A stretch of 64,000 bases of DNA from Metallosphaera sedula DSM 5348. GTDB taxonomy: Archaea; Thermoproteota; Thermoprotei_A; Sulfolobales; Sulfolobaceae. Where the stretch lies: NCBI RefSeq assembly GCF_000016605.1, contig NC_009440.1, forward strand, positions 620,001 to 684,000. Direction: 5' to 3'. The translations under genes were made by a program, and so were the position numbers. Shown here piece by piece: positions 17,657 to 21,288 of the stretch (its first letter is position 1; each line of letters starts with the position of its first letter). Under the pieces are notes generated by a model. It searched no databases. It saw nothing but the letters and a program-made list of their open reading frames with translations, and was not told the origin of the DNA.

Positions 17657-17718
17657 TGATTACTTCCCAGGCCTATTGGTGACGAGTCCTTTAAGTGCTG
17701 AGGGGTTTAACCCCCCGG

Positions 17719-18009
17719 TTAATGCACCATCTTCTCGAGCTCATCCAGCTTTTGGGCCAGTTTTAGATCCAGATCTGTGACCCCGCCCTCATCATGGGTA
17801 GTAAGGTGAACTATTACCCTGTTATAATACACGCAAAGGTCAGGGTGATGATCTAGGGAGTCAGCAACTGGCTGAACCATGTTCAAGAACCTGATGGATG
17901 AATCGAAGTCCGCGAACTTGAATTCCTTGACCAATTCCCCGTTCTCAAATCTCCAGTTACGTAAACCCTTAAGGGCCTGATCTATTTCTTGGACAGAGAG
18001 TCTAGGCAT
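17719..18009 (-). CDS. Pterin-4a-carbinolamine dehydratase
   Basis: Dehydrates 4a-hydroxytetrahydropterin (PCD/DCoH family), 96 aa, full length. The family motif is DHHPD (near residue 53) with the downstream His in VHLTTHDEGGVT. In Sulfolobales it is linked to the orc1/cdc6 region, by recall; the pathway role is unclear, as these archaea lack the classical aromatic hydroxylase system. ATG at 18007-18009. Confidence 0.93.
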   Translation of the reverse strand: MPRLSVQEIDQALKGLRNWRFENGELVKEFKFADFDSSIRFLNMVQPVADSLDHHPDLCVYYNRVIVHLTTHDEGGVTDLDLKLAQKLDELEKMVH

Positions 18010-18067
18010 GTCCGTCTATAGCACCGGAAGTTCTTATGTCTTAGTATTGAACGGAGTTACAGTATAG

Positions 18068-18084
18068 ATGCAATGTTTCATTCC
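18068..18084 (-). repeat. Origin-like motif copy 1
   Basis: Reads ggaatgaaacattgcat on the minus strand; it shares the 12-mer gaaacattgcat with copy 2. Confidence 0.6.
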
Positions 18085-18142
18085 TTGATATTCCCTAAAA
18101 TTCCACAAGCGAGTAATTAACTGAACGATAGTTTTCTATACG

Positions 18143-18179
18143 TTCAAGGATAATACCATCGAGAATGGTATTATTTGAA
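18143..18179. repeat. Extended dyad in the origin-like region
   Basis: ataataccat (18150-18159) is the exact reverse complement of atggtattat (18165-18174) across a 5-base loop. The symmetry continues outward as ttcaa (18143-18147) and ttgaa (18175-18179), with a 2-base bulge on the left. It lies between motif copies 1 and 2. Confidence 0.8.
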
Positions 18180-18200
18180 TGTGTGACTGTCACTGTGAAA

Positions 18201-18217
18201 ATGCAATGTTTCTCAAG
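18201..18217 (-). repeat. Origin-like motif copy 2
   Basis: Reads cttgagaaacattgcat on the minus strand, same orientation as copy 1. Confidence 0.6.
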
Positions 18218-18300
18218 AGAAAGTTCTTGTTCTTCTACTTCACGTGTTTGGCTAATTTATAACTAAAACTGATCGTTAGGGGTGAATTGAATAAACGGAA

Positions 18301-18313
18301 GAAACTCTGCACA
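18301..18313 (+). repeat. Origin-like motif copy 3
   Basis: Reads gaaactctgcaca on the plus strand, opposite in orientation to copies 1 and 2. Confidence 0.55.
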
Positions 18314-18362
18314 CTCGCAGTCTCTCTACACGTTAAATTCACGATTAGGGTAAGCAGATAAT

Positions 18363-18376
18363 GGAAACACTGCACA
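18363..18376 (+). repeat. Origin-like motif copy 4
   Basis: Reads ggaaacactgcaca on the plus strand. The preceding atggaaac resembles the GGAAAC core of archaeal ORB/mini-ORB elements. This copy would be coding if translation began at 18361, another reason to prefer the 18445 start for orc1/cdc6. Confidence 0.55.
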
Positions 18377-18444
18377 TATACTGTAAAGCCTTCATCCCTG
18401 TTTTGCACGGTAATAACATCGTGACACTTAAACGCGATAATACT

Positions 18445-19677
18445 ATGCCACAAAGTGAAACTCAATTTAACTATGGAAACTTAGGAAACTCTGTGATCAG
18501 AGAGGCACTAAAGGGGGGTAAGGGTGAGGTAATTAAGAACCCTAAGGTCTTCATTGACCCCCTGTCTGTCTTCACGGATATCCCTTTTAGGGAGGATATA
18601 ATTAGGGAGACCGCGATAGCGGTCAGGTACTTCGTGAAGAACGACGTTAAGTTTTCGAACCTATTTCTAGGTTTAACTGGGACCGGGAAAACCTTTGTGG
18701 TCAAGTACATCTATAACGAGATTGAGGAGGTCAAGAAGGAGGATCCAGATTACAGTGGGGTAAAACAGGTTTACCTGAACTCAAGGGAGGTTGGGGGAAC
18801 CCCTCAAGCGGTCCTTTCAGTGATAGCTGAAAAGCTCACAAATAGCCTCGTTCCAAGACACGGAGTTAATCTGGGCGAGTATATTGACAAGATAAAGAGC
18901 GTCCTAAGAGGAAAGAAGGCCATCATCTACCTCGACGAGGTTGATACCCTCGTGAAAAGAAGGGGAGGAGATATTGTGCTCTATCAGCTGTTGAGGGCAG
19001 ACGCGGACGTGTCAGTGATCATGATCAGTAACGATATCAACGTCAGGGATTACATGGAGCCCAGGGTTTTATCGTCGCTAGGTCCGTCGGTCATTTTCAA
19101 GCCCTATGACGCTGTACAGCTAAAGGAGATCCTCGCGAAGTATGCGGAGTATGGCTTGATTGACGGAACTTTCAATGACGAGATCCTCTCCTATATTGCT
19201 GCTATATCGGCGAGGGAACATGGGGATGCGAGAAAGGCGGTCAATCTTCTCTTCAGATCGGCCCAATTAGCCTCAGGGATAGGTTTCATTAAGAAGGAGC
19301 ATGTGGATAAGGCCATCGTAGAGTATGAGCAGGAGAGGTTGTTTGAGGCCGTCAAGTCGCTCCCCTTCCACTATAAGCTCGCATTAAGGGCCATAGTTAC
19401 GACGGAGGATGTGGTCACGGCGCACAAGGTTTACTCTAAGTATTGCGACAAGCTCAAGCAGAAGCCCCTATCCTACAGGAGGTTCTCGGACATTGTGTCG
19501 GAGCTTGATATGTTTGGAATAGTGAAGATAAAGATCATGAACAGGGGAAGGGCAGGGGGAATAAGGAAGTACGTGGAGGTTCATGACAAGGAAAAGATAA
19601 TGAAAGCACTTGACGAGAACCTAGCGGAAGAGATGGGTTATGAGTACGACGAAGGGTCCGATGTGGAAACGAGTTAA
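18445..19677 (+). CDS. cdc6: Orc1/Cdc6 replication initiator (AAA+ ATPase)
   Basis: Origin-binding initiator and helicase loader, 410 aa from the ATG at 18445 ([11 protein letters not shown]). Walker A is GLTGTGKTF, Walker [11 protein letters not shown], sensor 1 near [10 protein letters not shown] and sensor 2 in [15 protein letters not shown]-terminal winged-helix DNA-binding domain ends the protein. A longer frame opens at ATG 18361, but its extra 28 residues look non-coding and overlap an origin motif. Synteny with isocitrate dehydrogenase suggests the Sulfolobus Cdc6-3 orthologue. It overlaps the next gene by 17 bases. Confidence 0.93.
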
Positions 19678-19978
19678 GGAACTTGAGGACAGGCTACTGC
19701 AACTGGAGGAACGGAGGAAAAATATAGAGGCGGAATTGAACGCGTTACCAAACGGTCACCTTGAGTCCAAGATCATCAACGGCAACGTGTATTACTACCT
19801 TAGGTACTGGGAGGAAGGGAAGCTAAAGAGCAGGTATTTGGGGAGGGAGGCCACCAAGATCAAGGAACAGGTGGAGAGGGCCTCAGAGCTAAAGAGGGAG
19901 CTCTCAATGCTCAAGGAGGAGGAGAGAAGAATAAGAAAAGTCTTGGACAGAATATCTCTAGCCCTAGGCATAGATTAG
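19661..19978 (+). CDS. Coiled-coil protein of unknown function, 105 aa
   Basis: Highly charged helical protein: a heptad-like N-terminal helix ([20 protein letters not shown]), a short beta element [20 protein letters not shown], and a second long helix. The YYYLRY-(x)-GK-SRYLG centre resembles DUF6788-type proteins. Start ATG 19661 is preferred over ATG 19640, which lies farther inside cdc6. Translation is probably coupled to cdc6 (17-base overlap), hinting at a role with the initiator, which is inference only. It overlaps the convergent isocitrate dehydrogenase by 4 bases. Confidence 0.75.
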
Positions 19979-21210
19979 AGGGTGTCCATGATATTGATAA
20001 GTTCCTTTGTGAACTCAGTGGTACTCAAGGCCTTAACTCCCATAAACCTAGCAAGATCCTGAGTAACCCTCTTGGCGGAGACGGCCCTCAACACGGACTT
20101 CTCCACTAGATCTGCAGCCTCGTTCCACCCCATGAATCTTAACATAAGTTCGCATCCCTTAATTATTCCCGTGGGATTCGCCATGTTCTTTCCTGCGTAC
20201 TTGGGGGCAGTGCCGTGTATTGCCTCAAACATTCCACCCGAGTCGCCTATGTTGGCCCCGCCAAGCATACCAATGTTTCCTATAAGAGCTCCGGCCGCGT
20301 CGGATATGTAATCTCCATTAAGGTTGGGAGCTAGAATGACGTCGTACTCATCTGGTCTCGTGATAATCTGTTGGAACATGTTGTCAGCTATCCTGTCATT
20401 CACCACTATTTTTCCCTCAGGAGCTTTACCGTTGTAGTCCTTCATGATTTCCTCCTCCGTCACTACCTTGTCCCTGTACTCTCTCTTGATAAGGTCGTAG
20501 GCCCAATCCCTAAAAGCTCCCTCAGTGTACTTGAGCACGTTCCCCTTGTGCATTATGGTTAACTTTCTCCTTCCGTGTTCAATGGCGTAATTCATGGCCA
20601 TCCTCGTGATCCTCTCGGTCTTGAACTTGCTTATTACCTTGATACCAATTCCAGTATCGTCCTCTACATCAACGTGTAACTCGTTCTTAAGGAATGACCT
20701 TATCTTCTTGGCCTCCTCGCTGTCGTATGTGTACTCTATACCCCTATATAGGTCGTCTGTGTTTTCCCTGAAAATGATCATGTCCACCTTGTTTGGTTCC
20801 TTTAGCGGAGACTCGAGTCCATCTATATACTTCACCGGCCTAATGTTTGCGTAAAGGTCCAGCATGAGCCTGATGGCCACGTTCACGGATTTCCATCCCT
20901 TTCCAATGGGAGTCTCGAGGGGACCCTTAACCACTACCCTGTAGTTCAGGAGCATCTCCTGGGTCTCCTTGGGAAACCTATCCCCTGTCTTCGCGAAGGC
21001 CTTATCGCCAGCTAGTACCTCAACCCACTTGATCTCCCTCTTGGAGCCATAGGCCTTTTCCACAGCCTTGTCCACTACTTGTCTCGCAGAGGTCACAATC
21101 TCGGGTCCTATACCGTCTCCCTCGATATAGAGAATGACAGGTTTGTTGGGAACTATCCATCTCCCGTTTTGGAACGAGATTTTTTCACCATCGTCCGGGA
21201 CATGCGACAT
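19975..21210 (-). CDS. icd: Isocitrate dehydrogenase (NADP-type)
   Basis: Oxidative decarboxylation of isocitrate to 2-oxoglutarate, 411 aa. Signatures include YIEGDGIGPEI, the substrate-binding block KGPLETPIGKG, RENTDDLYRGIE, HKGNVLKYTEGAF and the metal-site region NLNGDYISDAAGALIG. The ATG at 21208-21210 (MSHVPDDGEKI) is preferred because a minus-strand TATA-like aaaaagttaaaa lies at 21233-21244, the leaderless spacing, and family members begin near here. A longer frame to 21267 exists. Convergent with the orc1/cdc6 pair. Confidence 0.95.
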   Translation of the reverse strand: MSHVPDDGEKISFQNGRWIVPNKPVILYIEGDGIGPEIVTSARQVVDKAVEKAYGSKREIKWVEVLAGDKAFAKTGDRFPKETQEMLLNYRVVVKGPLETPIGKGWKSVNVAIRLMLDLYANIRPVKYIDGLESPLKEPNKVDMIIFRENTDDLYRGIEYTYDSEEAKKIRSFLKNELHVDVEDDTGIGIKVISKFKTERITRMAMNYAIEHGRRKLTIMHKGNVLKYTEGAFRDWAYDLIKREYRDKVVTEEEIMKDYNGKAPEGKIVVNDRIADNMFQQIITRPDEYDVILAPNLNGDYISDAAGALIGNIGMLGGANIGDSGGMFEAIHGTAPKYAGKNMANPTGIIKGCELMLRFMGWNEAADLVEKSVLRAVSAKRVTQDLARFMGVKALSTTEFTKELINIMDTL

Positions 21211-21288
21211 GAAAGTTAGGTAGTTCGAACAACTTTTAACTTTTTGGATGATGAGGGGTTCGGACATTAACCGGGGAGTTAAAACAGC

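Follow-up and report, generated by a model that had tools for sequence, protein, structure and literature searches.

The window analysed here is a stretch of 64,000 nucleotides from Metallosphaera sedula DSM 5348 (620,001-684,000 of its single contig), in which an intergenic spacer separates a pterin dehydratase gene from a gene of the Orc1/Cdc6 type, with the isocitrate dehydrogenase gene icd beyond the latter (Table 1). This gene set, named already in the initial annotation, was matched by family profiles and by Cdc6-3 orthology. The initiator protein aligns with Cdc6-3 of Sulfolobus solfataricus (2qby_B) at E=1.6e-194, against 4.4e-57 for the paralog Cdc6-1, and judged from its sequence the gene adjoining the spacer is the Cdc6-3 ortholog; two other Cdc6-3 matches in this genome begin at 334 and 1,969,212. 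The closest named initiator locus is that of M. javensis (98% identity), followed by those of M. yellowstonensis and Candidatus Aramenus sulfurataquae. In this genome the initiator frame can be read from an ATG at 18361, which would place the box O2 (Table 1) within the coding region. Since the frame upstream of codon 18493 is interrupted by stop codons in 5/5 other same-genus loci, the GTG at 18493 was taken as the start, and the spacer, rightly located at the outset, therefore extends to 18492 and not to 18444. The initiator transcript is probably leaderless. The family search with gene X returned only a weak Seryl_tRNA_N match, below cut-off, and its product is a possible partner of Cdc6-3.

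Table 1. Features of the spacer and of the adjoining genes (positions in the window)
Feature	Position	Strand	Remarks
4a-hydroxytetrahydrobiopterin (pterin) dehydratase	17719..18009	-	NF002017, above cut-off
Intergenic spacer with putative origin	18010..18492		pterin dehydratase on one side, initiator gene on the other
Outer initiator box O1, TGAAACATTGCATCTATACTGTAA	18057..18080	-	matrix 24.6 bits; profile without this genome E=0.011
TTAGGG box 12 bp before O1	18093..18098	-	TAGGG rule at outer boxes
Perfect 10-bp inverted repeat ATAATACCAT/ATGGTATTAT	18150..18174		in the long arm
Inner initiator box I1, AGAAACATTGCATTTTCACAGTGA	18190..18213	-	matrix 23.4 bits; profile without this genome E=0.057
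Mildly AT-rich centre, presumed unwinding region	18221..18295		68% AT
ucm position, variant GTTTGGCTAATTT instead of GTTTGTATAAT	18246..18258	+	also in 2/5 other species of the genus
Inner initiator box I2, AGAAACTCTGCACACTCGCAGTCT	18300..18323	+	weakest; matrix 14.4 bits, 9.8 with the locus left out
TTAGGG box 12 bp before O2	18345..18350	+	TAGGG rule at outer boxes
Outer initiator box O2, GGAAACACTGCACATATACTGTAA	18363..18386	+	matrix 26.4 bits; profile without this genome E=0.044
Presumed BRE/TATA GAAACtcAATTTAAC of the initiator gene	18457..18471	+	conserved by eye in genus alignment; ~25 nt before GTG
cdc6-3 (orc1-3), 394 aa, GTG start	18493..19677	+	2qby_B; TIGR02928; Cdc6_C, Cdc6_lid, AAA
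Gene X, 112 aa, presumed coiled-coil	19640..19978	+	overlaps cdc6-3 end; homolog beside cdc6-3 in 27/27 loci
NADP-dependent isocitrate dehydrogenase (icd)	19975..21267	-	NF005036, above cut-off

A pattern search of the 64-kb window gave four exact copies of the motif GAAACWYTGCAY, at 18068-18079(-), 18201-18212(-), 18301-18312(+) and 18364-18375(+), in the opposed orientation and at the places and strands first described, and no further copy in the window when one mismatch was allowed. Shuffled windows gave on average 1.52 one-mismatch matches, and 6 in 100 reached at least four. The genome of 2,191,517 bp holds five exact matches, four of them in the spacer within 310 bp; a reversed control of the motif had two exact matches in the whole genome. 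Since GAAACWYTGCAY was chosen after viewing the region, the related genomes serve as the independent test. Their alignment identifies it as the 5' half of a 24-bp box with the consensus rGAAAC-n4-GAAATTtACtGTaA. The sites proposed initially are retained and their full extents corrected to those in Table 1; the initial annotation had covered neither the 3' halves of the boxes nor the TAGGG boxes, and had missed the position of the ucm and the true start codon. The outer boxes of this locus span 330 bp end to end. GC skew across 104 kb around the locus was noisy and mixed with gene strand, and a sigma-70 promoter scan was discounted because the host is an archaeon.

The boxes stand out also when the locus does not contribute to its own search. 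With a matrix built without this locus, three boxes came on top in 104 kb (24.9, 24.8 and 23.4 bits), followed by a match of 15.8 bits. With the whole genus left out, the three still lead with 18.7, 17.8 and 17.0 bits, the next match having 12.7. A 24-position profile was made from 52 boxes found in other genomes, among them those of five species of the same genus; at E<=1 it matched this genome three times, at O1, I1 and O2, among 150 scored of 568 first-look candidates. The box I2 is of another standing: it scores 9.8 bits with the matrix made without this locus, against 15.8 for the best background match in 104 kb, and falls below the 8-bit listing limit with the matrix made without the genus. 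It is weak by itself, and its case therefore rests on conserved position, the counterparts at the same place scoring 19.8 bits in G008, 27.0 in G010 and 13.0 in G007.

Cdc6-3 orthologs are present in 27 of 31 genomes of the family, at 74-100% identity, and missing from G004, G005, G020 and G021; among 147 genomes sampled in the order, 21 have a Cdc6-3 match at E<=1e-80, all of them in this family. Converging boxes above 9 bits lie at ori2 of 27/27 Cdc6-3 genomes (54 outer boxes, two in each locus, and 38 inner ones), as scored with a matrix fitted to these same 27 loci. There are four boxes in 12 loci, three in 14 and two in G006; for this count the initiator locus of G015 (L026) was swapped for the cluster of that genome (L048), and plus-strand matches lying no more than 60 bp from the start codon were left out. 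An iterated matrix gave 89 matches above 9 bits in the upstream regions of the 27 relatives, this locus included, against 1.2 expected from a Markov model, a contrast that is optimistic in that the matrix was fitted to the same sequences. The outer-to-outer span is 315-344 bp in 19/27 loci, and 270, 271, 276, 278, 352, 398, 402 and 506 bp in the others. The comparison with related genomes that the initial annotation had suggested thus shows conserved converging boxes, though not always four, at ori2 of each of the 27 genomes with Cdc6-3.

The pattern GAAACNNNNSANNTNYACNGTNA, written from these boxes, has 27 zero-mismatch matches in 18 of the 31 genomes, every one at ori2, and none in the four genomes lacking Cdc6-3. 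With one mismatch allowed, matches are scattered over all 31 genomes (3, 2, 1 and 2 in G004, G005, G020 and G021), and a reversed control has 0-7 per genome. Profile matches in these four genomes number 0, 1 (E=0.46), 0 and 0, respectively. The box cluster is accordingly missing from the same four genomes that lack Cdc6-3. In G020 the only strong Cdc6 match ends at 86,982 with three ORBs beyond, which fits Sulfodiicoccus acidiphilus, for which the available part of PMC6647314 gives a single cdc6 and an oriC-1 at 87,046-87,335 directly upstream of it.

Two isolated boxes were seen away from ori2. One, TGAAACACTGCAGTTATACTCTAA, lies far from ori2 in M. yellowstonensis (L051, G010, 2087-2110) and is near-identical to the O2 box of that genome. 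The other, GGAAAGGGAGGAAATTCACTGTAA (24.0 bits; L050, 1825-1848), is near the old type described below and belongs to G007, the outer ori2 boxes of which are of the TGC type. The exact old-type box pattern was also met in 14 stretches of viral contigs, with one match each. Eight stretches of viral contigs that fit a Cdc6-3 peptide pattern were rejected, as none encodes a relative, and a Cdc6-3 search of plasmids matched 409 records, all below 60% identity, with haloarchaeal genus names the commonest.

Outer and inner boxes differ in their surroundings. A 3' end of the form ACnGTA is present in 49/54 outer and 0/38 inner boxes. TAGGG ending 9-16 bp upstream, a spacing fixed after the boxes had been viewed, accompanies 51/54 outer boxes and 1/38 inner ones, against a background of 1.3% (696/54,320 positions); the stricter T(T/A)AGGG, taken at any place in the preceding 30 bp, occurs at 44/54 outer and 3/38 inner boxes. 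Inner boxes in 18 of 38 cases continue into TCTCTC, GTCTCT or TGTGTC, which is seen at 0/54 outer boxes. No mention of the TAGGG element was found in the literature searched, but it may already be in print in the original studies of these origins (Robinson 2004; Robinson and Bell 2007; Dueber 2011; Samson 2013). The sequence GGGGAG follows within 10 bases 3' of 17/54 outer boxes, often as AACTGGGGAG (L015-L034, L048), and a related GGGGTTTAACCCCCCGGTTAA lies near the 3' end of the pterin dehydratase gene at 17702-17722 of the window.

The core is asymmetric wherever both arms are seen, with a short arm (outer to inner box) of mostly 47-64 bp and a long arm of 132-147 bp, the exceptions being 77, 94, 97 and 192 bp. 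The long arm faces cdc6-3 in the genome groups g7, g9 and g11, and faces away from it in the genus of the window and in g3. The ucm is also turned in 8/8 loci of the window's genus and g3, as it is in G024, and is the opposite way round in 17 loci. In G015, the cluster of which has no adjoining cdc6-3, both arms are long. A near copy of the ATAATACCAT/ATGGTATTAT repeat, GATAATACTAT, stands before the initiator gene at 18436-18446 of the window, and GGTATTA elements resembling this repeat can be seen by eye in the alignment of relatives.

The centre, initially described as an AT-rich stretch, is only mildly so, with 68% AT against 63% in the spacer and 53% in the window. The core of 24/27 loci contains TTTGTATAW; the window genome, M. 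javensis (G008) and G007 have TTTGGCTAATT, and the spacer has no TTTGTATAW even when one mismatch is allowed. The flanks of the variant differ among its three species, as judged by eye from the alignment. TTTGTATAAW occurs six times in this genome, once in ori1 (154-163) and once at 1,646,082 beside a gene for a 213-aa winged-helix protein. This protein is 58.7% identical to the one just downstream of S. acidiphilus oriC-2, and by sequence, and by the oriC-2 neighbour given in the available part of PMC6647314, the gene is whiP. Both ori1 and the presumed ori3 of this genome retain GTTTGTATAA, and ori1 of G007 and G008 also carries a canonical ucm. The match at ori1 and the one beside whiP therefore indicate that the ucm has changed at ori2 but is retained at ori1 and at the presumed ori3. 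From its position, and from its presence in ori1, the central element is probably the published ucm. A ucm-core match near a one-mismatch box at 1,318 kb was rejected as an origin because it lies within a coding frame, which by motif presumably belongs to a ParA-like P-loop protein. This frame (L057 1031-1862; G000, ~1,318 kb) is spread over two overlapping frames and is perhaps a frameshifted gene.

Taken together, we read the spacer as ori2 (oriC2) of this Metallosphaera, with a probability of roughly 0.93, where Cdc6-3 would act at the four boxes and bidirectional forks would leave from the centre. We regard it as very probable that this spacer is among the three start sites for replication of the chromosome and would fire as such. 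The literature searched gave neither a replication profile nor a footprint for this species. By analogy with work on Sulfolobus, Cdc6-3 (Orc1-3) monomers would bind the four asymmetric boxes as converging pairs, O1 with I1 and I2 with O2. The initiator would read GAAAC together with the ACtGTaA half, and TAGGG, 12 bp from the outer boxes, would extend its contact. The facing initiators would then load MCM helicase at the centre, which is mildly AT-rich; bidirectional forks would start there, and the ucm position within it would normally bind the architectural protein UBP. Since all three Cdc6 proteins reportedly bind S. solfataricus oriC2, the model of Cdc6-3 monomers alone, which follows S. 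islandicus and S. acidocaldarius, may be too simple.

The boxes could instead be operators through which Cdc6-3 represses its own gene, with no replication start here. O2 ends 70-80 bp before the presumed BRE/TATA, and autoregulation may well occur additionally. However, G015 keeps its four-box cluster (L048 3569-3970) beside icd with cdc6-3 and gene X ~41 kb away (L049), and within the 8 kb around that cdc6-3 only one match exceeds 9 bits (15.2, close to the start codon). In the other six g6 genomes an ORF of 93-102 aa parts the two. These arrangements are the strongest sign that the cluster is more than an operator of cdc6-3. Boxes converging over ~330 bp around a ucm also fit an origin, and we consider it highly improbable that the boxes are operators and nothing else. 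The location in G015 and the turned cores show that the origin is able to separate from its initiator gene, and to invert, without being lost.

It is very unlikely, too, that ori2 is degenerate or dormant in this species, with the sites as remnants and firing from ori1 and ori3 only. The weak I2, the altered box core and the altered ucm would agree with such decay, but O1, I1 and O2 are the sole matches at E<=1 (among the 150 scored of 568) to a profile free of this genome's boxes, the initiator frame is open and 98% identical to that of M. javensis, and the variant ucm is common to three species despite diverged flanks. A chance cluster of a short motif can practically be dismissed: at least four one-mismatch matches do arise somewhere in 64 kb in 6/100 shuffled windows, yet four of the five exact matches of the genome fall within 310 bp, and the converging arrangement recurs at ori2 in 27/27 Cdc6-3 genomes.

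Within ori2, the form of the box has changed. All four boxes are GAAAC-n2-TGCAY in this species and in M. javensis, and one inner box of the old type (GAAAC-n4-GAAATT) is still present in G009, G010 and the two g3 genomes. In the Cdc6-3 alignment, eight columns distinguish g1 and g3 (8 loci) from the remaining 19 loci, and all eight lie outside an 18-residue stretch which we take to be the recognition helix; these columns are also simply clade-defining, and we therefore make no causal claim on box form. It is tempting to speculate, although we think it rather doubtful, that ori2 was re-specified in this clade and ori1 and ori3 were not, so that opening of ori2 would need no UBP, or would use another architectural protein. 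As the presumed recognition helix is nearly unchanged, base reading would then rest on GAAAC, ACnGT and TAGGG.

Having several origins, each served by an initiator of its own, sets archaeal chromosomes apart from most prokaryotic ones. The 27 aligned ori2 loci define the box better than single origins do, and reveal TAGGG at the outer boxes. Two box forms, sometimes within one origin, with a nearly unchanged initiator allow a direct test of what Cdc6-3 recognises in its site, and the variant ucm is a natural experiment on the extent to which UBP is required.

The locus can be compared with several described origins, here as far as the available excerpts of the cited papers go. In S. islandicus, oriC2 is located upstream of cdc6-3 and requires its own initiator (PMC4010727, PMC5333045, PMC12141716), carries miniORBs (PMC4010727) and consists of ORBs around a central AT-rich ucm (PMC3718332). 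Boxes in opposed orientation make the initiators face one another over the region that unwinds (PMC6742236). Footprints on S. solfataricus oriC2 are reported for all three Cdc6 proteins, and a co-crystal shows Cdc6-1 and Cdc6-3 next to one another on this origin (PMC5333045, PMC6742236). For S. acidocaldarius, the table rows of PMC12361140 imply ~142, 813 and 2,225,941 for oriC2; the outer boxes of the presumed S. acidocaldarius genome (G022), at 2,225,629-2,225,651 and 2,225,933-2,225,955, coincide with the tabulated oriC2 position, which rests on earlier mapping and may itself be tied to the gene. These agreements, together with the orthologous Cdc6-3, the shared converging boxes and the absence of the cluster from the four genomes without Cdc6-3, bear out the likeness to Sulfolobus oriC2 noted initially, as well as the suggestion of a Cdc6-3-type site.

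At oriC1, the ucm is required as well as the ORB on each side, and UBP binds to both the ucm and MCM (PMC12141716, in the part available). Compared with the ucm/UBP element of that paper, ori2 here has the same central position and the GTTTG..TAAT frame, whereas the middle TA is changed to GC, at ori2 only. A search for the UBP gene by the residues named there, over 40 kb of the presumed S. acidocaldarius genome, gave one unconvincing frame. The locus shares with oriC1, the origin with cdc6-1 and canonical ORBs, opposed boxes with GGAAAC around a ucm position. Unlike oriC1, however, the spacer is without CCAGTGGAAACnnAGGGG boxes, while ori1 of this genome has two exact ORBs, one near ORB and a canonical ucm, so the ORB likeness is limited to GGAAAC, as had been proposed.

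With the oriC2 of Sulfolobus and Saccharolobus, on the other hand, the locus shares the orthologous initiator and convergent GAAAC boxes, the outer of which have ACnGT in their 3' half, as well as a central ucm position and, in most loci, nearby icd and pterin dehydratase genes. It differs in the box core (GAAAC-n2-TGCAY here, GAAAC-n4-GAAATT there), in the ucm, which is GTTTGGCTAATTT here, in the asymmetric core being reversed relative to cdc6-3, and in icd lying on the far side of the initiator gene. Overall, this ori2 is a known kind of origin in a diverged, lineage-specific form, and not a new kind of origin.
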